From positions 372,001 through 436,000 of the forward strand of contig NZ_CP141728.1 in the NCBI RefSeq assembly GCF_035621135.1: a stretch of DNA of 64,000 nucleotides, in the 5' to 3' direction. The notes below the pieces were generated by a model. The model was given only the letters and a program-made list of their open reading frames with translations. It searched no databases and was not told where the DNA came from. The DNA is from Sinanaerobacter sp. ZZT-01 (GTDB lineage Bacteria; Bacillota; Clostridia; Peptostreptococcales; Anaerovoracaceae). Within the stretch, counting starts at the first letter, position 1, and each line of letters begins with the position of its first letter. Made by a program: the position numbers and the translations under genes. Of this stretch, positions 41,182 through 62,523 are shown piece after piece.

Positions 41182-41532
41182 TTACTGGTAGTAGCCGATG
41201 ATAATATTGAGGGTGGCGCTGCCCAGCACCGCACCGATGCAGGACACAATCGCCACTACAATGCGGTTGTTCCATTTTTTCTGATCCATCTCGTCCGCCG
41301 CACTTCTTCGGATACAGAAATAGATAATAAGCAGGCCGGCCACCACGGGAGCCAGAATCATCAGCCATGTGGTGGCGTCCTGAATGAGCTTTTCCGTACC
41401 CTTGGCTATTTGGCTGTCACCAATCCCGGCAGCATAGGCCACCGTACTGTTTTGGAACAAAAGATAGGCGGTAAGCGCTCCCGCACTCACCAACTTGCCT
41501 TTTGCTCTGATTTTTTTAATCATCTGTTCCAT
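41182..41532 (-). CDS. VirB2/TrbC-like prepilin protein
   Basis: The start is probably the ATG at 41532 (MEQMIKKIRAKGK); the longer form overlaps the end of virD4 by 92 bases. The 116 residues have a signal-like segment (ending AYAAG) and two membrane helices (about 55-80 and 90-112) joined by a short basic loop (KKWNNR). This two-helix layout after a cleavable leader is that of VirB2/TrbC pilins. It overlaps the VirD4 gene end by 17 bases. Confidence 0.6.
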   Translation of the reverse strand: MEQMIKKIRAKGKLVSAGALTAYLLFQNSTVAYAAGIGDSQIAKGTEKLIQDATTWLMILAPVVAGLLIIYFCIRRSAADEMDQKKWNNRIVVAIVSCIGAVLGSATLNIIIGYYQ

Positions 41533-43810
41533 CTTCACTTTCACTGTGTCTGGAACCTCCTTTCCTGAATCCTTTTTCTGAAAAAATTGCGCCCATCTGA
41601 GAAGCAAAAGCCTGTGACTTCTGCTGGGCTTCCTTCATCTGCAAATCCTTGGCGTAGTAAACCCAAATGTTCCAAAGAGGAATATCGCTGGTCATATTGG
41701 ACAGTACCAGACGGGCTGCTTCTCTCGTTTCCCGCACCATGCGGTTATGCTCCTTGCCGCCCAATCCGCACATCTGATTAAAATACCACTGCGACAGATC
41801 GGGGGCGTTCATCAGCGCCGGATGGGAACGGCTGATGACGATTTGTGAGGGTCGCTGGATTCTGCGGATTTCATCCGTTGTCAATAGCTCCCTTGCCACA
41901 AGGCTGATGCTGTGGGAGCTGGAGGGGTTGACATACCGCCCATGCTGGCTGGAAAGCTGATAGGCGCTAGTGGTGTACTTGCCCAGCTTGTCACAAACCT
42001 CCTGCAAGGTTTCCTTATCATCCGCTTGCAGATAAATCCATGTCTGACAGTTGGATTTGACGATAGCCTCCGTTTCTTTGTCGTATTTTAGGGAAAGCTG
42101 TTCAAAACTTTGCAGGAACAAATTGAACCGACACCCGCGCCCGCCTGCTACGGTCAGCTTATTGGGGAAATCATTCAGTTTTGTAAAATTTCCGAACTCA
42201 TCAAGCACAAAGTTGACACGGCGTTCCAGTCTGCCGCCACGCTGGTCGGATTGACGGACCAGAAGTTCATAGAGCTGGGATACCATCAGGCTGGCGATAG
42301 GGTAGTAAGTCGTCTTTTCATCGGGCAAAATCATATAGAGCGCCTGCTTTTTCTGTCCGATTTCCGAGATGTTGTAATCGCTCTTATGGGTAACGGAATA
42401 GACGGAACGGCTGGTAAACAGGCGCAGGGTAGTCAGCGCCGAGGTATCAAAGCTGCCCTTGGTACGGCTTGGGGCGACCTCGGCAATGGACATGAGCGCC
42501 CTTGCCGGGTGGGTGCTGGGCAGTTTTTTCATGTACTCGCTCATAGGCGTCTTGCCGCCCACAGACTTGCTCATTTCCGCGATAAACCAGTACACATTGG
42601 TGAGGTTCTGATACTCCGGCCGCTTTTTGTTGTCCACCACCACGCAAAGAATCGCTGCCGCTATGGTGGACTTCTCGCCGTTTTCCCATATCTTTTCATT
42701 GGAAACATCATCGCCCACAAGGATGTTGGTAATGTCCCACGCATACATTTCCGCACGTTCCATATCTCCCTTATTTACCGCGTCAATGACTGGTTGAAGG
42801 AGATTGTAACGAGTGCTTTTTTCCGGGTTCTTGAAATCCAGACAGATCACCTCATAGCCCAGCTTTTTAAGAAATACCGCTGTATAGTGGAACAGTTCGG
42901 CTTTGGGATCGCTGATGACCAGACTTTCCCCGGCAAGCCCCAGCATACAGATGGACTGGATGACAAGGCAGCGTGTTTTCCCTGAACGAGTTGCGCCGAT
43001 AGTCAAAGTATGGGTATCGTCAGGAATGTAGTAGAGCCGTTCAGACGGCTCCCCAAGCTCTCCTGCTCTGATTTTCTCTGCACCCACCACGATGCCGCCC
43101 TCATCAAACAGCTTATAGGGATCGGCTTTTTCTTTCTCCGGCTTATTTTGCGGTACGGGCGGGGTATCCTGTGGCTGTGGTGCCTCTGTTAAATGAGCAG
43201 CCGCAAGGTCATAATCCACGGATTCAAAGTCCGCATCCTGTATCAATTCCTCCTTTTCTTCCCTTGATTTTATAGGAACGGGCGGTGGGTTGGGTTCGTC
43301 CTGTACCGCCGCACCCTGCCCGGTTTCCACTTGCTCTAAGGGTATATTCTTATTTTTGTTTTCCTCCATAAACGGCAAATCCTCAAAGCCGGTATCTAAC
43401 AGCCTACGAATAAGAGGGTTCGCCGGATTGATAAGCTGTGTTCCAAAGACCCTGCACTTTTCTTTATCTTGCAGCCACCGTGCCGAGCCATGCTGATACT
43501 GTCCCACCGGGGCAGGCGTATAGATGTCCTCTGCCACTTGAACAAGCTCGCTTTGATAGGGGCGGTTGTTCTGTACCCAAAACAGCACACAGCACAGACA
43601 AAGGAAACCCTCAAAGGACAAGAACAACATAAGCTGCTGGCGCTGGGTGAACAGCCCTGCGATACAGTCCCATAACGGGAGTAAAGTCAGGGTACGGACC
43701 CGGTGCGACAGCAGCCCATGCAAAGCCGCAGTAAAGAACAGATTGAAAATTGTGCCAAGGCCGATGATGATGGAACCTAAAATGAGCTTTTCCTTTTTCT
43801 TCATCGGCAA
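41516..43810 (-). CDS. VirD4/TraG-type coupling ATPase
   Basis: This 764-residue protein has two N-terminal membrane helices (about 8-30, 60-80), a Pro/Glu-rich linker (about 150-240), Walker A IGATRSGKTRC (about 268-278), SLVISDPKAELFHYTA, Walker B NFVLDEFGNF (about 511) and VAGGRGCRFNLFLQSFEQL, all typical of type IV coupling proteins. It links the relaxosome to the transfer channel at the membrane. It overlaps the upstream gene by 10 bases and the downstream VirB2-like gene. Confidence 0.9.
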   Translation of the reverse strand: MPMKKKEKLILGSIIIGLGTIFNLFFTAALHGLLSHRVRTLTLLPLWDCIAGLFTQRQQLMLFLSFEGFLCLCCVLFWVQNNRPYQSELVQVAEDIYTPAPVGQYQHGSARWLQDKEKCRVFGTQLINPANPLIRRLLDTGFEDLPFMEENKNKNIPLEQVETGQGAAVQDEPNPPPVPIKSREEKEELIQDADFESVDYDLAAAHLTEAPQPQDTPPVPQNKPEKEKADPYKLFDEGGIVVGAEKIRAGELGEPSERLYYIPDDTHTLTIGATRSGKTRCLVIQSICMLGLAGESLVISDPKAELFHYTAVFLKKLGYEVICLDFKNPEKSTRYNLLQPVIDAVNKGDMERAEMYAWDITNILVGDDVSNEKIWENGEKSTIAAAILCVVVDNKKRPEYQNLTNVYWFIAEMSKSVGGKTPMSEYMKKLPSTHPARALMSIAEVAPSRTKGSFDTSALTTLRLFTSRSVYSVTHKSDYNISEIGQKKQALYMILPDEKTTYYPIASLMVSQLYELLVRQSDQRGGRLERRVNFVLDEFGNFTKLNDFPNKLTVAGGRGCRFNLFLQSFEQLSLKYDKETEAIVKSNCQTWIYLQADDKETLQEVCDKLGKYTTSAYQLSSQHGRYVNPSSSHSISLVARELLTTDEIRRIQRPSQIVISRSHPALMNAPDLSQWYFNQMCGLGGKEHNRMVRETREAARLVLSNMTSDIPLWNIWVYYAKDLQMKEAQQKSQAFASQMGAIFSEKGFRKGGSRHSESEDGTDD

Positions 43811-45485: not shown

Positions 45486-45510
45486 CCACTATTGTTATCT
45501 TATATTTTGT

Positions 45511-45524
45511 TGTGTTATGACACA
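45511..45524. promoter_or_regulatory. Candidate XRE operator
   Basis: TGTGT-TATG-ACACA is a perfect inverted repeat 35 bases upstream of the XRE gene. Autoregulation of XRE repressors at such sites is common; here it is inferred. Confidence 0.35.
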
Positions 45525-45558
45525 TAATAAAAGTAGGATAGATTAAAGGAGGATAAAG

Positions 45559-45867: not shown

Positions 45868-45868
45868 C

Positions 45869-45891
45869 CGGCTGCCCTAACAAGGCAGCCG
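45869..45891 (+). terminator. Terminator after the XRE gene
   Basis: CGGCTGCC and GGCAGCCG form an 8-bp stem with a 7-base loop directly after the stop codon, followed by CTATTTATT. It lies between convergent genes and may serve both. Confidence 0.6.
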
Positions 45892-45895
45892 CTAT

Positions 45896-46579: not shown

Positions 46580-46590
46580 AGGCACTCTCC

Positions 46591-47262: not shown

Positions 47263-47282
47263 TCCTCATTCCTCCTTAACGG

Positions 47283-48503
47283 TTAATGTTCATAGCCCTT
47301 ATCCTGCAATTTCAAAAACAGCTCCTTTTTGGCGTCCTTTGACAGCTCCCGGCCGTTGGCTTTCTCCCAATCGCTGAAACGGCTGTCATTGTCGTGGGTC
47401 AGACCGGAGAGCATATCCAGCGCCTCCATCAGCATCTGCTCGGCAAAATAAGAACGACGGGCGCTTTTGTATTCCTCGGATTTCATTTCATAATCCAGCC
47501 GGTTCAAGGTCTTTACCATGCCCAGCACACGGTTTGCAATGATTTTATCCGCTTCCCCGGAAAATCGCTTTTGCAGGCTGCCGAGGTATTCATCACTGCC
47601 GCCGTATAGCTGGGCCATTTTCATTTTGCTGTCTATGTAGCGTTCTTTCTGCTCCCTGAGTGCAGGGACATTCTCCAGAAGATACGCCACCAGCTTATCA
47701 ACCTCAGCCTTGAGTTCCGGCGTCAGAAGCTGATAGGCAATGCGGCCGGTGGGCTGGAGTGCGGATTTAAGACGGAATACACGGTCGGCGGTTTCATTCA
47801 GTACCGCATCATCAAAATCAAAGCTGCCGGATAGCTCATTTTCCTCGTCATAGTCATCCCGGAGCCGCTTATACTGATCCTTGCCCAGCCGCCGCAGATG
47901 CTGTTCAAACTCGTCTACCAGTTCATTGCTGATACTGCGCAGTTCGGCGGTGGCCTTGTTTTTCTGCTCCCCATAGGCACGGATGCGCTCCGCAAAGGTT
48001 TCTTTAATGAGCTGCTTTCTGATGGCATTGGGAACGGCAGGCGGGGTAAAGGGATTTTTGACCCGTGACGAGGTATCCCAAAACACCACATGGATATGGG
48101 GGTGGCGCTTTTCCTTATGGAGCGCACACGCCCATTGCAAGTTTTCACGCCGGATATTGTTTTTTTCGGCAATGGTCATAATGTGGTTTTCAATATACCT
48201 CTGCCATGCCTTTTGGTCGGTCAAGTTCAGTTCGGCAGCCGTTTCCTCGTCAAAAGAAATCACGCTGCGGTACTTGGTGATATGCTTTTTGGAATTGGCA
48301 TAGACCAGCCTTGCCACATCCCGCCAGTCCTCAAACTCGGTTATGGGACCAGGGGAGAGCTTTCCGAACAGTCCATGGTTCATGCCCTCATTTTTGGCAA
48401 CCCTCGGACGGGTGGCGATATAGCGCACATGGGCATAATTCTTGCCTGCGGTGCTTTTATAATTGGGATTTTTGAATCTCTGCTTATAGACTAAAAGGGA
48501 GAT
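47283..48503 (-). CDS. MobP3-like relaxase with non-standard or lost start codon
   Basis: The relaxase nicks oriT and leads the strand into the recipient. HxHxxxW-type motif HPHIHVVFWDTSS (about 136) and the N-terminal RYIATRPRVAKNEGMNHGLFGKL identify the MobP3-like family. The first standard start in frame (GTG 48428) would remove the conserved upstream segment SLLVYKQRFKNPNYKSTAGKNYAH. That segment is in frame and starts at an ATC (48503), 9 bases after GGAGG, where an ATG is expected. The ATG at 48510 is out of frame and only 2 bases from the ribosome-binding site. The C-terminal half is helical. Confidence 0.75.
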   Translation of the reverse strand: MSLLVYKQRFKNPNYKSTAGKNYAHVRYIATRPRVAKNEGMNHGLFGKLSPGPITEFEDWRDVARLVYANSKKHITKYRSVISFDEETAAELNLTDQKAWQRYIENHIMTIAEKNNIRRENLQWACALHKEKRHPHIHVVFWDTSSRVKNPFTPPAVPNAIRKQLIKETFAERIRAYGEQKNKATAELRSISNELVDEFEQHLRRLGKDQYKRLRDDYDEENELSGSFDFDDAVLNETADRVFRLKSALQPTGRIAYQLLTPELKAEVDKLVAYLLENVPALREQKERYIDSKMKMAQLYGGSDEYLGSLQKRFSGEADKIIANRVLGMVKTLNRLDYEMKSEEYKSARRSYFAEQMLMEALDMLSGLTHDNDSRFSDWEKANGRELSKDAKKELFLKLQDKGYEH

Positions 48504-48519
48504 TGCCCATCACCTCCCG

Positions 48520-49041: not shown

Positions 49042-49052
49042 AATAATTCACC

Positions 49053-51250: not shown

Positions 51251-51727
51251 TCACAGCTTATCTGCAAGACCACGCAGATTGTCAGTGTCCTGCAAAAAGC
51301 TGTTGATTTGAAAATCTTTTTTCTGCATATAGTCCACCCCCAGCGTGACCGCTTCATTTAACATTTGGTCAAACTGATCCTCTGTTCCATCGTGGGCAAG
51401 GTTCATCAAAACCTTAATCAGTAAAAAGAACCCTGCGGCGTCTATCTTGCCTGACTTCATCAGCATTTTGGCAAGACGATTGGTCTGTTGCTCTGCAACC
51501 GCTTTGATGTCCTCGATGTGATAGACCGCAGTAAATTCCTGTCTGATAATACTGGAAATAAAATCTACATTTTGGGTGTAGCCCTCAATGTCCAGTCCCT
51601 TTTCGATAAAGCGACGGATCTGCTCATTTCTGGACACATTCTCACGGGCTGCCAGCTTATCAATTTCACCGCACATTTCTTTGGTAAGATAGACCGACGT
51701 AATAATTCGGTCGCTTTTTTTCGCCAT
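51251..51727 (-). CDS. Ribbon-helix-helix DNA-binding protein
   Basis: This 158-residue protein has an N-terminal RHH motif: RIITSVYLTKEMCGEIDKLAARENVSRNEQIRRFIEKGLD (7-46). The rest is helical, with VAEQQTNRLAKMLMKSGKIDAAGFFLLIKVL. Such proteins often serve as relaxosome accessory factors or regulators. It directly borders the hairpin cluster at 51786-51931, which supports a role at oriT. Confidence 0.75.
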   Translation of the reverse strand: MAKKSDRIITSVYLTKEMCGEIDKLAARENVSRNEQIRRFIEKGLDIEGYTQNVDFISSIIRQEFTAVYHIEDIKAVAEQQTNRLAKMLMKSGKIDAAGFFLLIKVLMNLAHDGTEDQFDQMLNEAVTLGVDYMQKKDFQINSFLQDTDNLRGLADKL

Positions 51728-51785
51728 GATATCCTCCCTTCGACATTAGTCAAAACTTAACAACGTCAGTTACTCTTTAACAAGG

Positions 51786-51931
51786 GTACAGGCTTTGCCT
51801 GTACGGTGTTTTTGCGGGTTGTTTAACAACCCTATTCCTGCCTTAACTCCAAAATCTGAGATTTTGGCATTAAGTAGCCCCTGCCGCAAAAACGGCAGGG
51901 GCGTGGGTCGCTTCGCTCCCAAAAGAGCGAA
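51786..51931. other. Hairpin cluster, candidate oriT or replication origin
   Basis: Five perfect inverted repeats lie within 146 bases: GTACAGGC/GCCTGTAC (51786-51804), GGGTTGTT/AACAACCC (51816-51832), CCAAAATC/GATTTTGG (51849-51867), GCCCCTGCCG/CGGCAGGGGC (51877-51902) and TTCGCTC/GAGCGAA (51912-51931). There is no gene in 51728-52001. The site is upstream of the RHH gene and 3.3 kb from the relaxase. This structure is typical of origins of transfer or single-strand origins. No nick site was identified. Confidence 0.5.
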
Positions 51932-52001
51932 AACAAAAGTATGATCCGTGATATTAACAATAATTCAGGAACATGATAACCATGTTACACATCTACTCTC
52001 T

Positions 52002-52901
52002 TTAACGGGCAAATTTTTCACGATAAGTTAAATAGTCTAAAAATTTTGCAACGGCCAATGATACCGTTTTTTTGCTTCGCAAAGCAAGTCCGATTTTCCG
52101 ATAGGCCGGTACATCCAGTTCTTTTACAACGATTCGGTATGGAACTCGCTTCAGAATCAGCTCTGGCAGTATACTGATGCCAAGGCCGCTTTCCACCATA
52201 GACATCACGGCATAATCGTCCCATGTGGTGAAGTGTGTTTTTGGAGACAAGCCGCATCGGTCAAATATTTCTGAGATTTCCGCTTTTGCACCCTTTTCCA
52301 GCAACATGAATGGGTATTCGCAGAGTGTAGCTACTGGCACTTTGTCATATTCCGTGAGCGGGTGTCCTTCTGGCAGAATTGCTAGAAGCTTATCTTGCTC
52401 TAAAAAAATTGTCTCCAGTTCTGTATGCGTCGGTAGGCGCAGAAAGCCGCAGTCCACTCGCCCCTCCAAAATCCACGTTTCAATTTCTGTATAGTCACCC
52501 AGGAGAAGCTCATAATCGATGTTCGGATAATCCTTTTGAAATTCCTTGATGATACTCGGCAGCCAGTGCGTCGCCACGCTGGAAAAGGTTCCGATACGGA
52601 TTAGTCCTGATTGTAGTCCGTTGAGCTCATTCACCTGCATTTGTAGTTTTTGATATTCTTCACAGACCCCCTTAGCATATGGGAGTAACTTCGTGCCGTC
52701 TGAGGTCAGACGCACACCGGCACGACTACGTTCCAGTAGAATCACATTCCACTCCTTTTCAAGATCATTAATCATACGGCTAATTCCTGATTGAGAATAG
52801 TTCAGAATTTCCGCGGCTTTGGTGAAGCTTCCGTACTCAACTGTTTTGATGAACGCCATATATTTTAGAATATTCATATCCATTTTTTCGTCCTCTTTCA
52901 T
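52002..52901 (-). CDS. LysR-family transcriptional regulator
   Basis: This 299-residue protein has a LysR winged helix-turn-helix at about 8-67 (FIKTVEYGSFTKAAEILNYSQSGISRMINDLEKEWNVILLERS) and a periplasmic-binding-like effector domain (about 95-290). It is divergent from the YbaK/proB/exporter genes and probably activates them. It is the first gene outside the transfer region. Confidence 0.9.
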   Translation of the reverse strand: MKEDEKMDMNILKYMAFIKTVEYGSFTKAAEILNYSQSGISRMINDLEKEWNVILLERSRAGVRLTSDGTKLLPYAKGVCEEYQKLQMQVNELNGLQSGLIRIGTFSSVATHWLPSIIKEFQKDYPNIDYELLLGDYTEIETWILEGRVDCGFLRLPTHTELETIFLEQDKLLAILPEGHPLTEYDKVPVATLCEYPFMLLEKGAKAEISEIFDRCGLSPKTHFTTWDDYAVMSMVESGLGISILPELILKRVPYRIVVKELDVPAYRKIGLALRSKKTVSLAVAKFLDYLTYREKFAR

Positions 52902-52921
52902 ACGGTTTTGTGATTTTACAA

Positions 52922-52965
52922 ATGATTATTATTCGTTTTTCAAATCATAAATTTAATGCTACAAT
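52922..52965 (+). promoter_or_regulatory. LysR-type site and promoter of the YbaK operon
   Basis: ATGATT (52922-52927) and AATCAT (52943-52948) form an inverted repeat ahead of a TACAAT -10 box (52960-52965), and the -35 position is poor (TTTTCA). This is the usual layout of a LysR-activated promoter between divergent genes. Confidence 0.4.
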
Positions 52966-53001
52966 AAAACCGTGAAAATTACAAGTAAAAGAGGGATGAA
53001 T

Positions 53002-53541
53002 ATGTTTTATGTGAGTGAAATTCAAACAACGGCACCTGCTAAATCCAAGACGCCGTTGCAGGAAATAGTTTATGAAACTTTGGAGAAATTGGATATTTCC
53101 TTTGAACGGGTTGATACCGACGAAGCCATCACAATGGAGGATTGCATTCAGATCAATACAAAGCTAGAAATGAAGATGGTGAAGACTTTGTTCTTGTGCA
53201 ACCGACAGCAAACAGCCTTTTATCTCTTTATCACCTGTGGAGATAAGCCTTTTCGCTCCAAGGAATTTAGCAAATCTCTGGACATTGCTCGTGTTTCCTT
53301 TGCACCCTCAGATAAGATTGATACTATGCTGGGAACGAAGATTGGAGCTGCCACTGTTTTCAGTGCGTTGCTGGATGCAGATCATGCGGTACAAGTCGTT
53401 TTTGACAAGGATATTTTGTCTGAGGAATGGTACGGTTGCAGCGATGGAACTACTACTGGGTACATGAAGATTCGTACAGAACAAATCTTCCAAGATTTCC
53501 TTTCCTATGCCAAGCATACGCCATCTATCGTGGAGGTGTGA
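53002..53541 (+). CDS. YbaK/ProX-type aminoacyl-tRNA deacylase-like protein
   Basis: The start is taken as ATG 53002 (MFYVSEIQT), 7 bases after AGAGG. The 179 residues match the YbaK/ProX editing domain: an N-terminal DxxEA region, KMVKTLFLCNRQQTAFYLFITCGDKPFRSKEFSKSLDIARVSFAPSDKI, GTKIGAATVFSALLD and VVFDKDIL. ProX-type proteins hydrolyse mischarged tRNA(Pro). The coupling with proB (proline synthesis) fits a role around proline or a proline analogue. Confidence 0.8.
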   Translation: MFYVSEIQTTAPAKSKTPLQEIVYETLEKLDISFERVDTDEAITMEDCIQINTKLEMKMVKTLFLCNRQQTAFYLFITCGDKPFRSKEFSKSLDIARVSFAPSDKIDTMLGTKIGAATVFSALLDADHAVQVVFDKDILSEEWYGCSDGTTTGYMKIRTEQIFQDFLSYAKHTPSIVEV

Positions 53542-53542
53542 T

Positions 53543-54336
53543 ATGGGATTGTATCAGAATCGAATTGTTGTAAAAGTAGGTACTTCCACACTGACCAACG
53601 AAATGGGAATGAGCGATTTGCGTTCTTTTGACCGACTGGCCTGCGTTTTATCAGATATACAGAACATGGGATATGAAGTTATTCTGGTATCCTCCGGAGC
53701 GATTGCAGTGGGAATTAATAAGCTACAAATGAAGGCACGTCCCACCAGTATGCGTCTCAAACAGGCTGCCGCTGCAGTAGGACAATGCAACATCATGTTC
53801 CTCTATGACAAATTTTTCGGTGACTATGATAAGACCATTGCCCAGATATTGCTGAACGCTGAGGACATCGAGCAGGAGGAAAAGAAACAAAATCTGATAA
53901 ATACATTCTGGAAATAGGTGTTATTCCCGTCGTAAACGAAAACGACTCTGTCAGTTATACGGAAATTGAATCGGAGGAGCGACTGTTTGGAGATAACGAT
54001 ATGCTCTCCGCTGTAGTAGCCGTTCTTTGCAGGGCAAAGAGGCTCGTCATCTTTTCAGACATTGATGGTCTGTATGACAGCGATCCACGCTTACATCCAT
54101 GTGCGAAAAGGATTGAGTATATCGAACACATAGATGACAGCATTTATGCTCTGGCTGGTGGAGCCGGATCAAGGCGCGGTACAGGTGGAATGCGGACAAA
54201 GCTACAGGCGGCATCTCTTGCTACTGCACAAGGAATTGACACCATTATTACTAACGGCAAGAACCCTCACTCCTTATATGATATTGTCGGGGGTGGGAGC
54301 GCCGGAACAGTGTTTGTTGGAAGGTGCAGACTATGA
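53543..54336 (+). pseudogene. proB: Glutamate 5-kinase (proB), frameshifted
   Basis: The ATG 53543 follows GGAGGTGTGAT. Frame one (53543-53917) carries IVVKVGTSTLTNE, VILVSSGAIAVG and AAAAVGQCNIM, then meets TAG. The continuation lies in another frame from about 53907: LEIGVIPVVNENDSV, FGDNDMLSAVVAVL, FSDIDGLYDSDPR and GTGGMRTKLQAASLA, ending with TGA at 54336. Around TTCTGG (53909-53914) the family pattern needs about two more residues before LEIG, so a small deletion (about 7 bases) fits. The amino-acid kinase is probably inactive. No PUA domain follows, as in short ProB forms. Confidence 0.8.
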
Positions 54337-55199
54337 AGCAGGCATATTTCAAGTACATCCTTGCGCTTCTACTTTTCGGTTCCAACGGAGTTGTTGCAAG
54401 CTATATCGGGTTAACCAGCTATGAAATTGTCCTTCTGCGCTCTCTGTTGGGCAGTATTCTACTGATCGTGGTTTTCTTTTTCACAGGACACAAACTGACT
54501 GTACTACAGCATAAAAAAGATTTCTGTTATATTGCACTATCTGGTATCGCAATGGGTGCTGACTGGCTACTTCTTTTCGAGGCCTTTGCTCAAATCGGTG
54601 TTAGTTTGGGAATGCTGATCAATTACTGTGGCCCTGTTATTGTAGTGGCGCTTTCTCCATTTCTGTTTAAGGAACGAATAAGCCCACAAAAATTGACCTC
54701 TCTGATTACAGCCCTTATAGGCGTCTTTCTTATCAGTGGGCAGGCGGCAACGGAAGGGGCCAACTTCTGGGGACTTCTCTGTGCAGGCCTGTCAGCAGTC
54801 TCTTACGCTGCCATGGTGATTTTCAACAAGAAGTCAAAGCAAGTCACAGGGATGGAAAACTCTACCCTTCAATTATTTTTCGCTTTTGTGACAGTATCAA
54901 TTTTTATAGGATTCAAGCAATGTTTCTATATAGAAATTGCTACTGAGGATTGGTTACCAATTTTGTGGATTGGTCTGCTAAACACCGGGATAAGTTGCTA
55001 TTTGTATTTTTCCTCCATCGGACGTCTACCAGTGCAGACTGTAGCAATCTGCGGCTATCTGGAACCGCTATCCGCAGTTGCTTTAGCAGCAGTGCTTTTG
55101 CAAGAATCCATGACAGTGACGCAGTTGTTTGGCGCCACAATGATTATCGGCGGTTCAGTTTTCGGAGAAATGACCTCATGGAAAAAAGTATCTAAATAA
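54333..55199 (+). CDS. DMT/EamA-family exporter
   Basis: The start is ATG 54333, overlapping the proB stop (ATGA), after GGAAGG. The 288 residues form about ten membrane helices in two EamA repeats (FGSNGVVASYIGLTSYEIVLLRSLLG...; GLLCAGLSAVSYAAMVIFNKKSK...). Members export amino acids and related metabolites. Linkage to YbaK- and ProB-like genes suggests a proline-type amino acid or analogue. Confidence 0.85.
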   Translation: MKQAYFKYILALLLFGSNGVVASYIGLTSYEIVLLRSLLGSILLIVVFFFTGHKLTVLQHKKDFCYIALSGIAMGADWLLLFEAFAQIGVSLGMLINYCGPVIVVALSPFLFKERISPQKLTSLITALIGVFLISGQAATEGANFWGLLCAGLSAVSYAAMVIFNKKSKQVTGMENSTLQLFFAFVTVSIFIGFKQCFYIEIATEDWLPILWIGLLNTGISCYLYFSSIGRLPVQTVAICGYLEPLSAVALAAVLLQESMTVTQLFGATMIIGGSVFGEMTSWKKVSK

Positions 55200-55451
55200 C
55201 ACTCCTTTGGTTGAGTTGAGCATTTTTTTATATCAATGCTCAGCTTGTTTCTTTTATATCCCCAATATAGTCCAGTCAATACTTGCATAAAGACTGTGAA
55301 TAATTTTAAGTTTTCATAATACTGGACTCTTTCCTAATTGTTTATATTTATTAATTGAAACTTCGACTTTACTATGGTAAACTTTTTTATATATTTACCA
55401 AGGATAACTTTTTTGAAGCGGTAATGGGGAATTTAATTCTCTGCTCTGGGA

Positions 55452-55502
55452 ACGAATTCGTATTTGATTAATTCGCATTAGGCGGATACGCATAATGCGA
55501 AT
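55452..55502. promoter_or_regulatory. Inverted repeats upstream of the AraC gene
   Basis: ATTCGCATTA (55471-55480) pairs perfectly with TAATGCGAAT (55493-55502), 12 bases apart, and the palindrome ACGAATTCGT is at 55452-55461. They lie 20-70 bases before the AraC gene and may be its operator. The 322-base gap 55200-55521 shows nothing else convincing. Confidence 0.4.
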
Positions 55503-55521
55503 CTTTCTTTGAAAAACAAGG

Positions 55522-56352
55522 GTGAACAATTTGATTATAAAAGATAACAAGCAATTCAATATGTTTCCCTCACATGTGGGGCTGAGAAAATATATTCAAT
55601 ATTACAACATCGTATTTCCATCGAATGATACATTTACAGCACAATATACGCTTATGCCTAACGCTTGCGGAACATTGTCGCTTGCTTTTGACGGAAACGC
55701 AGTCATTGCTGAATTGTGGGGAGCATCTTTAACCCCTGTTTTGTTAGGAATGGAAGCAAATAGTTATCATGTCCTACTGCTTATTCAGCTTTCGCCTTAC
55801 GGGTTGTATCAAATCACACGTCAAAGCCAAGCGGAGTTTGCAGACAAACGCCTTTCGCTTGTGGACATCGACAACGAGTTGTTCCGTTTATTGCATCATG
55901 CTTTTGCAATATCAAAAACTGTAACCGACTTAGCGAACGCTTGCGAGGAAATTTTATACAAACGTATGGAAAATCATGTTGTTTCAAATGCTTTGCTATT
56001 GGCAACCAAAGCGATTTCTGATAATCATGGACAGCTACAAGTGAAAGAGATTGCCAGACTATCTTGTTATAGTGAACGGCAGCTAAACCGCTTGTTCCGC
56101 ACACAAATTGGAATGAATGTTAAGGACTTTGCACGTTTAACCCGCTTTAATTATGTATTAAGGCACATTCAAAAATCACCTTGCTTTTTTGCGGCATTGT
56201 CACAACAAGCTGGCTATTTCGACCAAGCCCATTTTGATAAAGATTTCAAGGCTATCAGTGGTGTGTCACCCCAAAATTACTTGAAAACAATGTCGGATTT
56301 TTACTATGACGGCACAGAGATATACGATACACTATCCTCAAAGGAGGATTGA
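55522..56352 (+). CDS. AraC-family transcriptional regulator
   Basis: This 276-residue protein has an N-terminal sensing domain (about 1-150) and the AraC double helix-turn-helix at about 165-265 (IARLSCYSERQLNRLFRTQIGMNVKDFARLTRFNYVLRHI; AGYFDQAHFDKDFKAISGVSPQNY). The start is GTG 55522; a TTG at 55531 is also possible. It is followed by the VOC gene after 3 bases and probably regulates it. Confidence 0.85.
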   Translation: MNNLIIKDNKQFNMFPSHVGLRKYIQYYNIVFPSNDTFTAQYTLMPNACGTLSLAFDGNAVIAELWGASLTPVLLGMEANSYHVLLLIQLSPYGLYQITRQSQAEFADKRLSLVDIDNELFRLLHHAFAISKTVTDLANACEEILYKRMENHVVSNALLLATKAISDNHGQLQVKEIARLSCYSERQLNRLFRTQIGMNVKDFARLTRFNYVLRHIQKSPCFFAALSQQAGYFDQAHFDKDFKAISGVSPQNYLKTMSDFYYDGTEIYDTLSSKED

Positions 56353-56355
56353 AAA

Positions 56356-56826
56356 ATGAAATATCAAGGTTGTCTTTTAGCGGTTAAGGATATAGCCGCA
56401 TCGAAACACTTTTATGAAAAGGTGCTTCATCAAAATGCAGTCATGGATATTGGCGTACATGTGACTTTTGAGGGTTTTTCTCTGCAACAAGGATATGCCG
56501 AACTCGTTGGTGTGGCAGTCAATAGCGTGAAAGAGCAGTCACATAACTTTCAAGTCTATTTTGAAGTGGATAATTTAGATGAAGTGTATGCCGAATTGAG
56601 AAAGATATCCAGTTTGCAATGGGTACATGAAATCAAAGAATACCCGTGGGGGCAGCGTGATATTCGGGTATATGACCCCGACAAGCACATTGTAGAAATT
56701 GCAGAGGATATGACCACGGTTATCAAACGCTTTTTTAATCAAGGCATGTCGGCAGAAGAAGTTGCTACACGCACAATGTTCCCTTTTGAGGTTGTAAAAC
56801 AGTATGCGTTAGGCTTCGGTATGTGA
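56356..56826 (+). CDS. VOC (glyoxalase/bleomycin-resistance) superfamily protein
   Basis: This 156-residue protein has the VOC fold pattern GCLLAVKDIAASKHFYEKVL, FQVYFEVDNLDEVYAELRK and PWGQRDIRVYDPDKHIVEIAEDM, and a C-terminal helical tail. AAAGGAGG precedes the ATG. The substrate is unknown; such proteins can be dioxygenases, isomerases or resistance proteins. It is coupled to the AraC regulator and closed by a terminator. Confidence 0.82.
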   Translation: MKYQGCLLAVKDIAASKHFYEKVLHQNAVMDIGVHVTFEGFSLQQGYAELVGVAVNSVKEQSHNFQVYFEVDNLDEVYAELRKISSLQWVHEIKEYPWGQRDIRVYDPDKHIVEIAEDMTTVIKRFFNQGMSAEEVATRTMFPFEVVKQYALGFGM

Positions 56827-56832
56827 TACACG

Positions 56833-56856
56833 GCGGCTTTGGTAAATCAAAGCCGC
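56833..56856 (+). terminator. Terminator after the VOC gene
   Basis: GCGGCTTTG and CAAAGCCGC form a perfect 9-bp stem with a 6-base loop, followed by TATTTTATT, directly after the stop codon. Confidence 0.8.
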
Positions 56857-56891
56857 TATTTTATTCCAAACAAGATCGGAGGAGACGGACA

Positions 56892-57098
56892 ATGAGTAAA
56901 TATGAGCCACTTTGGAAGGCGATAGGTCAACGCGCGGAGAACAGCTTTGCGCTGACCTATGCCGAGATTGAACAGATTCTGGGCTTTCCCATCGACCACG
57001 CCTTTTTAACCTTCAAGAAGGAGCTGCCCGCCTACGGCTACGAGGTTGGTAAGATCTCCATGAAGGCACAGACGGTGACGTTCAAACGCTGCGTTTGA
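56892..57098 (+). CDS. Small DUF7662-like protein
   Basis: The start is ATG 56892, 10 bases after GGAGG; an upstream ATG would read through the terminator. The 68 residues (KYEPLWKAIGQRAENSFALTYAEIEQILGFPIDHAFLTFKKELPAYGYEVGKISMKAQTVTFKR) match a small domain common in Clostridia and phages, here alone. The function is unknown. Confidence 0.7.
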   Translation: MSKYEPLWKAIGQRAENSFALTYAEIEQILGFPIDHAFLTFKKELPAYGYEVGKISMKAQTVTFKRCV

Positions 57099-57153
57099 CA
57101 AGCGGCTGCGTTTCTGCTATCATCGGCTTCACCCATCCAAGAGGAGGAACACT

Positions 57154-57876
57154 ATGAACTGGGAGCCATGGACAGGCTGTTACAAAATAAGTGATGGCTG
57201 TACAAATTGCTATTTTTATGGTCCGTATGCAAAACGCTATGGTCAAAGCACAATACAAAAAACAGATAAATTTGATTGGCCCGCAAGGAAAAATGCAAAG
57301 GGCGAATACAATATCAAAGGCAACAAAATTCTTCCAACCTGTTTTGCGACTGACTTTTTCCTGCCAGAAGCAGACGAGTGGCGTAAAGACATTTGGGCTA
57401 TCATCAAGGAAAGAACTGATATTGATTTCTTGATTTTAACAAAGCGAATTGATCGTTTTCTCGTATCACTTCCACCCGATTGGGGTGCAGGCTATGACAA
57501 TGTGAATATTGGTTGTACTGTCGAAAATCAAGCATTAGCTGATTACAGACTGCCACTCTTTTTATCTTATCCGATAAAGCGGCGGTTCATCGCTTGTGCC
57601 CCACTCTTAGAAAAGATAGATTTGACACCGTATCTTCGTGGAGTAGACCATGTGACAGTTGGCGGTGAAACGGGTCGAGAAGCTCGTGAATGTGATTATG
57701 ATTGGGTACTTAATATCCGTGAACAATGCGTAAAAGCAAATGTAACATTTTGGTTCAAAAACACAGGCTCACTTTTTAAACGTGACGGTGTAGTGGAAAA
57801 AATAAATCCATTTAAGCAAACCAGTATAGCAAAAGAGCTTGTTATCAATATTTCAGATGGAAAAAGGTTGTTTTGA
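57154..57876 (+). CDS. DUF5131-like (phage Gp37/Gp68-type) protein
   Basis: This 240-residue protein has the N-terminal Cys motif WTGCYKISDGCTNCYFYGPYAKRYG, FFLPEADEWRKDIW, DIDFLILTKRIDRF, NVNIGCTVENQ and HVTVGGETGREARECDYDWVLNIREQC, typical of the phage Gp37/Gp68 family (DUF5131). A radical-SAM-like role has been suggested for the family by its Cys pattern; the substrate is unknown. AGAGGAGG precedes the ATG. Confidence 0.82.
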   Translation: MNWEPWTGCYKISDGCTNCYFYGPYAKRYGQSTIQKTDKFDWPARKNAKGEYNIKGNKILPTCFATDFFLPEADEWRKDIWAIIKERTDIDFLILTKRIDRFLVSLPPDWGAGYDNVNIGCTVENQALADYRLPLFLSYPIKRRFIACAPLLEKIDLTPYLRGVDHVTVGGETGREARECDYDWVLNIREQCVKANVTFWFKNTGSLFKRDGVVEKINPFKQTSIAKELVINISDGKRLF

Positions 57877-58005
57877 CAGGAACAGAATAGCATAAAACAT
57901 TATTGCCTGTTTTGTTTAATGAATGTTCTGAACGATCCAAACGAGGATACCCTCCGAAACTGATTTAATTCGTCCACCAGAGAAAAACTCACTAATTATG
58001 AAATT

Positions 58006-58035
58006 GAGCCGTTGCACCTCTTGATGCAACGGCTC
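58006..58035 (+). other. Isolated stable hairpin
   Basis: GAGCCGTTGCA and TGCAACGGCTC form a perfect 11-bp stem with an 8-base loop, followed by CTTGTTCGTT. It lies in the gene-free gap 57877-58171, 130 bases after the DUF5131 gene. It may be its terminator or part of an unrecognised RNA. Confidence 0.45.
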
Positions 58036-58109
58036 CTTGTTCGTTATATGCCCAAAATCGTCCAGAGTATCCTGTGCATAAGGACGGTTATAGGTTTGCT
58101 TTCAAACAC

Positions 58110-58151
58110 AAAAGGCAAAGATTCCAATGTTAATCAGAATCTTTGCCTTTT
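58110..58151 (-). terminator. Terminator of the hcp operon
   Basis: AAAAGGCAAAGATTC and GAATCTTTGCCTTTT form a perfect 15-bp stem with a 12-base loop, 20 bases after the hcp stop. It has A/T runs on both sides and could work in both directions. Confidence 0.85.
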
Positions 58152-58171
58152 ATTTAAAACATCAGTACGAA

Positions 58172-59803
58172 TTATTCGCCCATGAATAACTTGATATCAT
58201 CTTCAACTTGTCCGATACCTGCAATACCAAACTTTTCAACAAGGACTTTTGCAACATTAGGTGATAAAAATCCCGGTAAGGTAGGACCAAGGTGAATATT
58301 CTTAACCCCTAAATAAAGTAATGCAAGTAAGACAATTACCGCTTTTTGCTCATACCATGCGATGTTAAATGCAATCGGCAGATCGTTAACGTCCTCAAGT
58401 TCAAATATCTCTTTCAGCTTCAATGCGATTACTGCAAGAGAGTAGGAATCATTACATTGGCCAGCATCAAGAACTCTTGGAATACCACCAATATCTCCTA
58501 ACTCAAGTTTATTGTAGCGGTACTTTGCACATCCTGCAGTAAGAATAACCGTATCCTTCGGTAGTTTTTCTGCAAACTCAGTGTAATATCCACGAGATTT
58601 CATTCTGCCATCACAGCCTGCCATAACGAAGAACTTTTTAATTGCACCTGATTTTACTGCATCAACTACTTTGTCTGCAAGGGCAAAAACTTGGTTGTGA
58701 GCAAAACCGCCAACAATATTGCCTGATTCAATTTCTACAGGAGGCTTACACTGCTTTGCCATCGCAATAATTTCAGAAAAATCTTTTTTGCCATTTTCAT
58801 CAGCTGTGATGTGAGGGCATCCGGGATAGCCTGATGCACCGGAAGTAAAGATTCTTTGTCTGATTTCCTCACTTCTTGGAGGTACAATACAGTTTGTAGT
58901 AAATAAAATGGGGCCATTAAAGGTTTCAAATTCGGTCACTTGCTGCCACCATGAACCGCCGTAATTTCCCGCAAAATTATCATACTTTTTAAAGAAAGGA
59001 TAGTAATGTGCAGGAAGCATTTCACTATGTGTATAAACATCGATACCAGTACCCTTGGTTTGTTCCAGTAGTTGCTCTAAATCAGTGAGATCATGGCCTG
59101 AAATCAGTATTCCAGGATTGTTTCTTACACCAATATTAACGCTGGTAATTTCAGGATTTCCATATTTGGAGGTATTGGCTTCGTCTAGCAGCGCCATCGC
59201 TTTCACGCCAAACTCGCCTGTCTTTAATGTTAATGCCACAAGATCATCTGCAGACAAAGAATCGTCAAGGGTTGAAGCAAGTGCTTCATAAATAAATGCA
59301 TTGATAGCAAGATCTTCTTTTCCGATATTAAGGGCGTGATGTGTATACGCTGCCATACCTTTCAAACCATAGATAATCATTTCTCTAAGAGAACGAACAT
59401 CTTCATTTTCCGTTGAAAGTACACCTACTTTAGATGCTTTGTCTAACATAGACGCTCTATCGATTACTTCAAACTCCGCCGCATCACCAAGGTTAACACC
59501 AGAAAGCTGTTTTTTTAGCCCGTTTCTAAATTCAATCATTTTATGGATTTGATTTTCGATTGCGCCATCATCAAAATTAGCGTTTGTAATAGTGATAAAA
59601 AGGCTTTTTAACACTTCATGGTTTACTTCACTTATGGATTTAACATCCACTTTTCCTTTTACCACGATTTCAGAAATCCCTTTTGTAACATAAATCAGCA
59701 AGTCTTGCAATTTTGCAACTTCCTCATTTTTGCCACACACACCTCTTACCTCACAACCGGTACCTTTTGCGGTTTCTTGGCATTGGTAACAAAACATACT
59801 CAT
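58172..59803 (-). CDS. hcp: Hydroxylamine reductase / hybrid cluster protein
   Basis: This 543-residue Hcp has the N-terminal Cys cluster [20 protein letters not shown] (5-23) and hybrid-cluster ligand motifs [38 protein letters not shown] and [33 protein letters not shown]. Hcp removes NO and hydroxylamine in anaerobes and is cytoplasmic. Rubredoxin, a likely electron donor, is encoded just upstream. Length is as in class I/II Hcp. Confidence 0.95.
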
Positions 59804-59822
59804 AATCGTTCCCTCCTTCGTA

Positions 59823-59987
59823 TTATTCCTTTACTGGTTCAAACTCATCTTTACCCACAAAGCAAATTGGGCAAACCCAATCATCAGGGATATCTTCAAA
59901 CGCAGTTCCTGGGTCTATTCCACTATCCGGATCACCTATTTCTGGGTCATAGATATATCCACATGGGATACATACATATTTTATCAT
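59823..59987 (-). CDS. Rubredoxin
   Basis: This 54-residue gene was found by reading the strand between hcp and the cupin gene. The ATG at 59987 follows AAAGGAGAAACAAAT. The product begins [15 protein letters not shown], has [25 protein letters not shown] in the second half, and holds the two CxxC pairs (Cys6, Cys9, Cys39, Cys42) that bind iron. The full rubredoxin length and pattern are present. It probably passes electrons to Hcp or a related reductase. Confidence 0.95.
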
Positions 59988-60026
59988 TATTTGTTTCTCC
60001 TTTCAATGATTATAAATTTTGTTTCA

Positions 60027-60341
60027 CTATTTTAAAGGTGCCGGGGCTTTTACGACAATTAGCTCAAGCACATTTTCCAATACATTCTTAACATTCATCT
60101 TTGTATTCACAGGAATTTTCAAAAGAGTTCCCTTATTATATTGGTGCACTTCTTGATCATTTAGCCCTATAGATAAAGTCCCCCTTACCACTGTCATATA
60201 AACGTTAGAGTTGGAAAAATGTTCTGGGAGGCCTTCATCCTTATTAAAGATCATATGAATATAATGAATATTTTCATCCTGAATTACTCTTTCAACCGCT
60301 TTTTCATCTCCAGTGGACATTTCATAGACTTGCTCAATCAT
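60027..60341 (-). CDS. Small cupin-domain protein
   Basis: This 104-residue protein has cupin motif 1 (HFSNSNVYMTVVRGTLSIGLN) and motif 2 (YNKGTLLKIPVNTKMNVKNV). The metal-binding His set is reduced (His at about 42 only is clear). The ATG follows AAAGGAGG. It is the first gene of the cupin-rubredoxin-hcp unit. Its role is unknown. Confidence 0.8.
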   Translation of the reverse strand: MIEQVYEMSTGDEKAVERVIQDENIHYIHMIFNKDEGLPEHFSNSNVYMTVVRGTLSIGLNDQEVHQYNKGTLLKIPVNTKMNVKNVLENVLELIVVKAPAPLK

Positions 60342-60385
60342 TTTGTATACCTCCTTTTTGTTATAGTTTTAAATTATGTGGTTAA

Positions 60386-60391
60386 ATTATA
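60386..60391 (-). promoter_or_regulatory. -10 box of the cupin-rubredoxin-hcp operon
   Basis: TATAAT on the leftward strand, about 45 bases before the cupin ATG. Transcription would start near 60379, which puts the palindrome at 60412-60429 at about -41.5. Confidence 0.6.
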
Positions 60392-60411
60392 CAACACATG
60401 CGAAGAAATGT

Positions 60412-60429
60412 ATGTTGTTTTTACAACAT
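60412..60429. promoter_or_regulatory. Crp/Fnr-type box upstream of the hcp operon
   Basis: ATGTTGT-TTTT-ACAACAT is a perfect 7-bp inverted repeat with a 4-base spacer. It is centred about 41.5 bases upstream of the predicted start site, the standard place for class II activation by Crp/Fnr-family proteins. The regulator is probably the one at 61743-62393. Confidence 0.6.
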
Positions 60430-60436
60430 TTTCTAC

Positions 60437-61150
60437 TTATTCATTGTAACGAATGGCGCTAACAGGACAAGCCAATATTGTTTGGTTAAGCCTTTCTTTG
60501 TCTATTTCAGAGTCAAAAGATTTAATATATGCTTTTTTACCTTGCATACCAAAAATCTCAGGATAATTTTTAGTACACAATGTGCAGCCCATACAAGATT
60601 CTCTGTTTAATGTAAGACCACTTGCTTTTTCTTCTTTCTGTACTATATCTTCGTCTTTAACGATTTTTGAAGTAATCCACGAAAATACTACTATTGCAAT
60701 TACAGTTAATACCCAGCGAATTGCCATAAACTTTATTCCCAAAAATTTTGCTTCATTTAGCAGCATTGGAACCTTTATTACTGCCCACGAGCTTAAAATT
60801 ATAACCAAATTTCGTACAGAAGCTCCCTTTTTGTGGAGCATTACACACATAGGAAATGCTGCATATATCGGTCCCGCAGATATGCTACCTAAAACGAACG
60901 ACAATATAATACCTTTAACTTTGGATTCTTTTCCTAAGTATTTTGTGATTTTTTCCTTTGCAATCCATGTATCCAAAAGCGCGGTAAGAACAAATATCAC
61001 CGGCATTATCATAAGCATTTCTTTAATGTAATAGGCACTGTTTTTAATTGATGTAACACCCATATCTGGTTTAAGTATAAACATCAGGATATAGGCAGCT
61101 ACAACCACTATCAAGAAAGTATTATCTTTTGCTTTTTTTAAGATTTTCAT
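60437..61150 (-). CDS. Permease fused to a C-terminal ferredoxin domain
   Basis: This 237-residue protein has five or six membrane helices (about 10-165; GSISAGPIYAAFPMCVMLHKKGAS is typical of DUF318/ArsP-like permeases). It is fused to a single 4Fe-4S ferredoxin-like domain (CMGCTLCTKNYP ... ACPVSAIRYNE, about 186-233). It overlaps the second permease gene by 4 bases, so the two probably form one transporter. The transported substrate is unknown. The fused redox domain suggests a link to the electron-transfer genes nearby. Confidence 0.75.
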   Translation of the reverse strand: MKILKKAKDNTFLIVVVAAYILMFILKPDMGVTSIKNSAYYIKEMLMIMPVIFVLTALLDTWIAKEKITKYLGKESKVKGIILSFVLGSISAGPIYAAFPMCVMLHKKGASVRNLVIILSSWAVIKVPMLLNEAKFLGIKFMAIRWVLTVIAIVVFSWITSKIVKDEDIVQKEEKASGLTLNRESCMGCTLCTKNYPEIFGMQGKKAYIKSFDSEIDKERLNQTILACPVSAIRYNE

Positions 61151-61629
61151 ACAATCACCCCCATTACCATAGCGATAATTATGGCAAATAAAAAGCTTAA
61201 TCCGTTTCTAGTAGCAGTAAATTTAAGCCCAAATTCACGCTTTTCAAGTGGAAATGTTACGACCCCTACCATTGTAAGTGTAGTTAGAAATGCTACGGAA
61301 GGAACAACACTAACCCCAGCGTCAACCAGCGTACCGACAAGCGGAAAAGCAATAAAGGCAGGGATCAGTGTAATTGTTCCAAATGCCGCCGAACCCACCG
61401 TTGCTATGACTAAGGATTGATTTCCTACAAATTCGGCAATATACTCTGGCGGTAATATTGTCAGAATTAAACCGATTAAAAAAATAATTGATAATATGCT
61501 TCCCAGCATCCCCTTGCCCATACCAAATGCCATTTTAAGTGCTTTCAATGTCTTCGATTTATCCTTTTTTAAGGAAATCAAAAGGAATATAATCGTTCCT
61601 ATCCACATTGCTACTGTAAAAATATCCAT
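61147..61629 (-). CDS. Permease partner subunit
   Basis: The start is taken as ATG 61629 (MDIFTVAMW), 6 bases after GGAGG; the open frame continues upstream into the promoter region. The 160 residues have about five membrane helices, with SAAFGTITLIPAFIAFPLVGTLVDAG, and look like the other half of a split DUF318/ArsP-type permease. It is coupled to the ferredoxin-fused half. Confidence 0.7.
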   Translation of the reverse strand: MDIFTVAMWIGTIIFLLISLKKDKSKTLKALKMAFGMGKGMLGSILSIIFLIGLILTILPPEYIAEFVGNQSLVIATVGSAAFGTITLIPAFIAFPLVGTLVDAGVSVVPSVAFLTTLTMVGVVTFPLEKREFGLKFTATRNGLSFLFAIIIAMVMGVIV

Positions 61630-61647
61630 ACAAATCCTCCATTCTTT

Positions 61648-61661
61648 TTGTGATAACACAA
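61648..61661. promoter_or_regulatory. Second Crp/Fnr-type palindrome, overlapping permease -10
   Basis: TTGTG-ATAA-CACAA is a perfect 14-bp palindrome with the same 4-base spacer as the box near hcp. It adjoins the leftward TATAAT (61666-61661) of the permease genes and lies about 69 bases upstream of the start of the divergent Crp/Fnr gene. Confidence 0.5.
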
Positions 61662-61687
61662 TTATAAAGTAGTTTATCATTCGCAAA

Positions 61688-61716
61688 TAGACACCGATGT
61701 TTCTTTTTGATATAAT
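61688..61716 (+). promoter_or_regulatory. Promoter of the Crp/Fnr gene
   Basis: TAGACA (61688-61693) and TATAAT (61711-61716) with a 17-base spacer, 27 bases before the ATG at 61743. Confidence 0.6.
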
Positions 61717-61742
61717 GTTTTTAAATGGAGGAGTAAATTCAT

Positions 61743-62393
61743 ATGAATATTGACATTTTACGAAACATTTCATTATTTTCAGCTGTAAAGGAATCTAATT
61801 TAGAAAAACTAATAGCAGGTAATCATATTTATCAAAAACACTATATGAAAGGTGCAACCGTTCATAATGCAAATGAAACTTGCCGTACATTAGATATTGT
61901 ATTGTCAGGAAGTTTGGTTGCGTATTCTTTATCAACGAACGGTTCAGCAACTACGATGTTTGAATTTAGTCAGGGAAGTGTGATAGGAGCAAATTTATTA
62001 TTTGGTGACAACCACAGTTATCCTCTTACTATCTATTGTCTTATAGATTGTCAAATTATCCATATTGACATAAATGCTGTTTTGGAGTTTTTGCATGATT
62101 ACAATTTTACATTGCATTATATAAAGTCAATCTCACAAAATTCACAAGGAATAAATCAGAAGATAGCAATGTTTACACAAAGAACACTTCGTGAAAATAT
62201 TATGAATTATTTTAAACAGCAAACTATCATACAGAAATCTTCGGTAATTCTGCTTCCAATGAGTAAAAGACAACTGGCAGATTATTTTGGTGTACAAAGA
62301 CCTTCTTTGTTCAGAGAAATGAAAAAATTAAAAGAGGAAGGTATTATTGAAATTAATAACCGTACAATCGCAATAAAAAAATATAAATACTAA
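61743..62393 (+). CDS. Crp/Fnr-family regulator (HcpR-like by context)
   Basis: This 216-residue protein has an N-terminal cyclic-nucleotide-binding-like beta barrel (about 10-120) and a Crp-type winged helix (about 145-212; LPMSKRQLADYFGVQRPSLFREMKKLKEEGIIEINNRTIAI). The sensing domain has no Fnr Cys cluster. Regulators of this family next to hcp (HcpR) control hcp in response to NO, and the palindromes at 60412 and 61648 are probable sites. GGAGG precedes the ATG. Confidence 0.88.
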   Translation: MNIDILRNISLFSAVKESNLEKLIAGNHIYQKHYMKGATVHNANETCRTLDIVLSGSLVAYSLSTNGSATTMFEFSQGSVIGANLLFGDNHSYPLTIYCLIDCQIIHIDINAVLEFLHDYNFTLHYIKSISQNSQGINQKIAMFTQRTLRENIMNYFKQQTIIQKSSVILLPMSKRQLADYFGVQRPSLFREMKKLKEEGIIEINNRTIAIKKYKY

Positions 62394-62432
62394 ATATTTA
62401 AAGGATGTTGTAAAATATAAAAGTCAAATTTA

Positions 62433-62486
62433 ATCTTAAAGCAGAGCAACGGCAAACTAAACTTACTGTTACTCTGCTTCATTTTC
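62433..62486 (+). terminator. Imperfect terminator after the Crp/Fnr gene
   Basis: AGCAGAGCAACGG and CTGTTACTCTGCT pair with two mismatches, followed by TCATTTTCTT. It lies between convergent genes. Confidence 0.4.
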
Positions 62487-62523
62487 TTATAAACACAATA
62501 TAGTTCAAGTATAATCGATGATG

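Follow-up and report, generated by a model that had tools for sequence, protein, structure and literature searches.

What does a cluster of perfect inverted repeats do in a gene-free gap of a conjugative element? The first-pass annotation of the window (the whole stretch of 64,000 nucleotides analysed here, from Sinanaerobacter sp. ZZT-01) had reported five perfect hairpins within 146 bases, at 51786-51931, and had read them as a likely origin of transfer (oriT). With hairpins defined by perfect arms of at least 7 bases and loops of 1-8 bases, we recovered exactly these five, out of 46 in the whole window. The local density is well above that of the remaining sequence, as had been claimed: the next densest 146-base stretch (near 27542) holds three hairpins, the maximum per 146 bases in 40 first-order Markov versions of the window was three (2/40), and 2000 simulations from the dinucleotides of the segment itself gave at most two (7/2000). 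The cluster is beyond chance. The annotated surroundings also proved accurate. No ORF of at least 80 aa lies wholly within 51728-52001 (one 90-aa plus-strand ORF extends to 51760), and a gene for a ribbon-helix-helix (RHH) protein adjoins the gap on the minus strand. Rfam gave nothing at gathering scores in the window, and a plasmid collection queried with 301 bases of the region gave no match.

The minus strand carries a conjugation operon made up of the RHH gene, a DUF5688 gene, several small genes, and the genes for a relaxase and a coupling protein (Table 1). The relaxase scores above the curated cut-off of the MobP3 family, and its H-P-H-x-H and Y-I-A-x-R motifs are invariant in 16 sequences. 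The start listed for its gene (GTG, 48428) is too short: the open frame and conservation continue upstream to at least 48491, and part of a conserved YKQR...NYAHVRYIATR stretch lies in this extension (48428-48491). The tyrosine of YIATR is probably the catalytic one, by analogy with Tyr26 of pLS20. A PDB fold search with the structure model of the relaxase (mean pLDDT 69) gave no significant match (MobA of R1162 ranked 40, E 1.3), and a PDB sequence search gave one weak relaxase match, 9qq7 (E 0.017). The RHH protein combines an RHH_1 domain with a gene position beside the hairpins, as expected of a relaxosome adaptor. Its structure prediction is confident in the N-terminal part and has long stretches under 50 (mean pLDDT 59.9), and its PDB sequence search returned weak matches only.

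The hairpins also mark the start of the accessory block, in agreement with the first-pass annotation. Nucleotide homology to six related loci (L002, L010, L011, L012, L013 and L055) runs up to 51933-51943 and comes back at 62567-62591, within the toprim/DUF3991 gene. In L004 about 120 bases separate the end of the toprim ORF from the core described below. The block encodes a LysR regulator, a protein with an aminoacyl-tRNA editing domain, an EamA transporter and a Prismane-family protein; by eye, its other ORFs resemble pieces of glutamate 5-kinase, AraC-type and Crp-type regulators, and permeases. Elsewhere in the window, 10518-17435 encodes a 2305-aa protein with SLH, GLUG and LysM domains, probably a surface protein.

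Table 1. Features of the probable oriT and of the element around it (window coordinates).
Feature	Position	Strand	Evidence or remark
Conserved oriT segment: core, H2, spacer, H1, first downstream repeat	51776..51846	-	covariance model R1
14-base core AAGGCAGGAATAGG (plus strand CCTATTCCTGCCTT)	51831..51844	-	one copy per locus in 20/22 loci
Hairpin H2 GGGTTGTTAAACAACCC	51816..51832	-	8-bp perfect arms; 5' of predicted nick on transferred strand
Hairpin H1 GTACAGGCAAAGCCTGTAC	51786..51804	-	8-bp perfect arms
Hairpin H3	51842..51874	+	just 3' of predicted nick; imperfect stem, 16-base arms, 88% complementary
Hairpin H4	51877..51902	+	lineage-specific; 10-bp arms
Hairpin H5	51912..51931	+	lineage-specific; 7-bp arms
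Repeat 1, TTGTTAA, within H2	51823..51829	-	predicted RHH-protein site
Repeat 2, TTGTTAA	51777..51783	-	46 bases from repeat 1
Repeat 3, TTGTTAA	51757..51763	-	66 bases from repeat 1
RHH accessory (adaptor) protein, 158 aa	51251..51727	-	predicted relaxosome component; RHH_1, E 6.4e-7
MobP3-family relaxase	47283..48491	-	NCBIfam NF041499, 225 bits (cut-off 150)
VirD4-type coupling protein, CD1115 family	41516..43810	-	NF045973, 310 bits (cut-off 250)
TrbL	39559-40401		
Type II/IV secretion ATPase domain	31996-33369		
TraG-type P-loop protein	21931-23769		
Accessory (cargo) block between oriT and toprim gene	51944..62566	.	homology gap
DUF3991/toprim gene	62524..63531	-	Pfam; close to oriT in relatives without this cargo

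We compared the site with 22 related loci, mostly from Lachnospiraceae, obtained by a search with the RHH protein. A core, AAGGC[A/G]GGAATAGG, occurs once per locus in 20 of them, against 0.004 copies expected in their 258,719 bases; the two most distant loci (L022 and L023) have TAGGCAGGAATAGT in its stead and, at the corresponding place, a hairpin after it. The genome that carries the window has one exact copy of the core. The order in relatives is core, H2, H1, and the start of H1 is constant to about one base relative to the core wherever H1 is well formed; in L120 and L121, found by the genome scans below, the core-to-H1 distance is three bases shorter. Perfect arms of at least 7 bases in H1 are found in 28/31 sequences (the exceptions being L070, L023 and the first site of L073) and of at least 5 bases in H2 in 27/31. 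Five of the eight pairs of H1 and five of the seven of H2 are changed on both sides. We measured covariation on an alignment of 23 of the 31 sequences (without L002, L006, L007, L012, L055, L065, the second site of L073, and L084). In H1 and H2 together, 90.4% of cells are paired (75.0 in shuffles) and 55 have both sides changed (20.6 in shuffles), while structures slid along the alignment reach at most 43.5% paired and 25 such cells. One measure out of the five used, the count of further pair types, does not exceed the shuffled value (18 versus 17.5). Folding z-scores below -2 were obtained for the H1-H2 stretch in 20/20 loci, for the H3 stretch in 16/20 and for the H4-H5 stretch in 5/20. Hence, three of the five hairpins belong to a common design and two are local. 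A perfect hairpin with 9-bp arms (51849-51867) lies inside H3.

The site is linked to a relaxase as well. A MobP3 relaxase was found in 18 of the 22 related loci and was not found in L008, L017 (contig end), L022 and L023; in the window its gene starts 3.3 kb away. L008 has the oriT and the RHH gene with no relaxase match, although about 6 kb downstream are covered. The hairpins are thus conserved in related elements, with compensatory changes, around a nearly invariant nick-like core that an inverted repeat adjoins, and the oriT reading survives the alignment that the first-pass annotation had proposed as a check.

The hairpin cluster is, we conclude, very probably the oriT of a MobP3-type integrative conjugative element: its hairpins show conservation with compensatory changes, the relaxases nearby are of the same family, and the core and gene order are IncP-like. 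By analogy with the IncP nick TATCCTG^C, we infer a nick on the plus strand between 51840 and 51841, TATTCCTG^CC, or CCTATTCCTG^CCTT over more of the core. The relaxase would cut there, stay on the 5' end and lead the strand rightwards, so that the recipient would receive H3 and the cargo at the start and the transfer genes at the end. H2, close to the nick on its 5' side, might be the hairpin read when the strand is rejoined. Core and H1 are the most constant part. The neighbouring RHH adaptor is predicted to bind H2 and the copies of the H2 word at +46 and +66, and the C-terminal half of the adaptor may contact the relaxase.

It is improbable that the hairpins serve as operators, attenuator or terminator in a regulatory region of the operon that starts with the RHH gene. 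Autoregulation is frequent among RHH proteins and is compatible with an oriT. The single promoter-like site (51753-51726, minus strand) and the single terminator-like site (H1, plus strand) are what shuffled sequence yields (1 versus 1.0 and 1 versus 0.7, respectively). The site does lie directly upstream of the first gene of the minus-strand operon, but in L003, L017, L018 and L021 an ORF of more than 200 aa separates the RHH gene from an intact unit, and the unit is also present in L119 and L073, where no RHH relative was found. Still less probable is that the oriT lies elsewhere and that the hairpins are a single-strand origin or leading-region promoter. H3-H5 are strong hairpins on the side that would enter the recipient first, whereas H4-H5 are not conserved (5/20 loci) and the core, itself no hairpin, is nearly invariant; the IncP-like core and gene order point to a nick, against a separate single-strand origin. 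The first-pass annotation had offered such an origin as an alternative to an oriT. A separate one is not needed, but H4 and H5, which lie on the side predicted to lead, may fill that role. That the hairpins are a recombination or cargo-insertion site, the footprint left by the 10.6-kb block, is hardly credible: the cargo begins beside them and identity between the window and L011 switches at the core (100% over the 30 bases on its left, 57% over the 30 on its right), but relatives with the toprim gene close by (L004, L010-L013) have the unit too, and its stems covary.

How far does this oriT extend beyond its closest relatives? We built a covariance model of core, H2 and H1 (R1), which gives the window segment 87.8 bits (E 5e-19, the sequence itself being part of the model), and ran it over 595 genomes, 296 of the same family as the window and 299 of the family of genome G688. 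In the former set, strong matches were found in G000, G063 and G178, the three genomes with an RHH homologue, and two of these three sites were included in the model. The latter set gave five matches, two of them in the model. L084, absent from the 23-sequence alignment, was already known before R1 was built. Four sites are outside the training set (G178, G862, G878 and G717), all in mobile DNA. Those of G178, G862 and G878 lie at most 1.5 kb from MobP3 relaxases of 27-29% identity. The G178 relaxase match contains two stops. L120 (G862) and L121 (G878) have their oriT and relaxase gene on opposite strands, and either a weak RHH candidate (23% identity, no Pfam match) or none was found in them. 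A match in G263 (26.7 bits) is probably false, with no recognised mobility gene in the 16 kb around it. A pattern search allowing three mismatches returned the window's own genome alone among the 296 family genomes, and this genome and G584 among 391 of the class. The 16-base string TTAAGGCAGGAATAGG occurs in 11 IMG/VR contigs; L055 scores 90.7 bits, and we judged the other ten, with at most 23.3 bits, to be chance matches. The core string by itself is thus insufficient.

Several sites were found apart from any MobP3 relaxase. In L074 (G690), core, H2 and H1 are followed by genes for an RHH protein, with 43% identity to that of the window, and next for a large serine recombinase; tblastn found no MobP3-type relaxase in 27 kb around the site, and the only MobP3 relaxase found in that genome is on another contig. 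L119 (G717) is a plasmid-like contig of 9.7 kb, without exact terminal overlap, that encodes a Rep3 initiator, a ParA-type ATPase, a phage endolysin and a holin- or hemolysin-like protein and has an oriT site at 8015-8085 (72 bits); no MobP3 relaxase was found in the G717 genome. L073 (G584) has, beside a serine recombinase, two oriT-like sites that differ in sequence and face in opposite directions, at 5997-6067 on the plus strand (65.4 bits, in the model) and at 6215-6286 on the minus strand (50.6 bits, not in the model), which perhaps serve two helper families; no MobP3 relaxase was found in the G584 genome. Elements with an oriT and no relaxase are already known (PMC5704250, PMC11389934), and among the types of mobilizable element named in one of these sources (PMC5704250), L074 resembles 'oriT and RAF' and L119 and L073 resemble 'only an oriT'. 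The Firmicutes examples MTnSag1 and tISCpe8, there given as mobilised by Tn916, have oriTs unrelated to that of the window.

Two further observations concern broken copies. In L065 (5886-5956) the oriT is followed by a match to the first 26 residues only of the RHH protein (92% identical), apparently the remnant of an element. In G686, contigs L067 and L068 end at the same place inside the oriT and L069 ends at its core, as if several elements shared the oriT as a repeat that breaks the assembly.

We then looked for association of the parts of the site with the proteins that may read them. The word in H2 is shared with the stretch 46 bases on in 13/20 loci, only with that at 66 in two more, and with neither in five. 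No downstream repeat of the H2 word was found in L074, and none at 46 or 66 in L004, L005, L022 and L084. Among offsets of 30-99 over 25 loci, 46 agrees best and 66 second best, though the word differs between lineages, being TTGTTAA in the window and GGGTTCC in L012; the agreement at 46 was reached in 0 of 20,000 permutations. Sixteen elements were used for correlation with the proteins. L007 and L008 (near copies of L006) were left out, as were L014 (RHH translation stops after 52 residues), L017, L022 and L023 (no relaxase found), and L009, because a contig end cuts its left side. H2 (r 0.90) and the repeat (r 0.91) track the RHH protein in its N-terminal half, H2 also when the relaxase is given (partial correlation 0.89), and do not track the relaxase (partial correlation 0.08). 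The relaxase is tracked by the 30 bases left of the core (0.71) and by the C-terminal half of the RHH protein (0.81). Permutations of this 16-element correlation ignore phylogeny, and the decisive contrast, that of the window with L010, L011 and L012, may represent one or two independent exchanges. The window is itself a mosaic: it shares 95% identity with L002 over 51257-51933 and 91.6% with L012 over 44240-50021, and the relaxase identities are 68% to L002 and 95% to L012. This mosaic and the pattern of co-variation suggest that H2 and the repeats are read by the RHH protein, and the core and perhaps H1 by the relaxase.

We tentatively put forward, as a possibility that we rate somewhat below even, that the site is a two-part lock. 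Core and H1 would be a common half read by many MobP3 relaxases, and H2 and the repeats an exchangeable half read by the RHH adaptor and swapped together with its DNA-binding half, the exchange taking place at the nick core. The common half might be exploited by elements that have no MobP3 relaxase, namely the integrative element L074 with an adaptor of its own, L119 and L073. If so, the sequence of an adaptor would predict the oriT that a helper can mobilise, a prediction of adaptor specificity that swaps could test. Which integrated elements can mobilise which others is described as hard to read from sequence because oriT sites are often unknown (PMC11389934). The core, the covariance model and the adaptor-repeat rule offer a means of finding the oriT of clostridial MobP3 elements and of spotting silent hitchhikers that have no relaxase.

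The 14-base core of the window is absent at long MobP3 relaxases (about 750-1015 aa) in the loci examined. A related core, GC[A/G]GG[A/T]TAAAG, lies upstream of them in 11 of 14 distinct loci (0.13 expected in the 21 stretches searched). The pattern was written from six loci and is present in 5/8 others; L032 (read as L080), one of the 11, needed a longer flank, and no related core was found in the 1.2-1.4 kb upstream of L035, L054 and L101. Six of the eleven cores are GCAGGATAAAG, which reads TATCCTGC on the opposite strand. In 11/11 the word at +13 or +14 is found again downstream, over 8-12 bases in ten loci and over 6 in L051, and another stem follows. The second MobP3 relaxase of the window's own genome (L031/L076) is among the long-type loci with a related core. 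Thus a layout of core, hairpin with word, second hairpin, repeats, RHH gene and relaxase appears common to two MobP3 branches. This related, oriT-like layout is that of L028-L034, L046, L047, L051 and L053, with words such as GGTGGTCG or CTGTCAGG repeated downstream. The idea that long MobP3 relaxases have no comparable site was ruled out, most having a related core with hairpins and repeats.

Overall, the site is of a known kind, and among the papers listed by our searches, in journals covered only in part, we found no description of the anatomy of this variant and no MobP3 nick pattern for such elements. Tn1549 is, like the element of the window, a conjugative element with a MOBP relaxase, described as cis-acting (PMC6856555), and differs in its nick, listed as RYGCTTG^C (PMC7755788). 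In pLS20, the prototype of MOBL relaxases, the relaxase is reported to nick, next to an inverted repeat, the strand that serves as template for the transfer genes, in an oriT bound by two RHH proteins (PMC5313138, PMC5675868). The window relaxase likewise matches Pfam MobL, its auxiliary protein is of the RHH type, and the strand predicted to be nicked, the plus strand, is the template strand of the operon. However, the mapped pLS20 nick, GCCGG^CTTTT, is unrelated to the window core, and pLS20 differs in having two RHH proteins, a 362-bp oriT and other repeats. In core and gene order, the site is similar to the oriT of IncP plasmids. The nick TATCCTG^C, listed for plasmid pMAS2027 (PMC7755788), is not matched exactly by the window core, which is one T longer. 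Plasmid pBS228, of the IncP-1 (RP4/RK2-type) group, has GGCAGGATAGG where the window has GGCAGGAATAGG, and its hairpin lies on that same side of the core; traJ follows after 100 bases and then the relaxase gene traI, all in one orientation. We take this stretch to be the IncP oriT, though the record has no such annotation. The long MobP3 type often has exactly TATCCTGC. The window agrees with the IncP/MOBP order and orientation of core, hairpin, accessory gene and relaxase. It differs from IncP-1 in its relaxase, which is closer to Pfam MobL (43 bits) than to MobA/VirD2 (21.8 bits, below the cut-off of that model), and in its hairpin, which abuts the core and is followed by a second hairpin and by repeats at +46 and +66.
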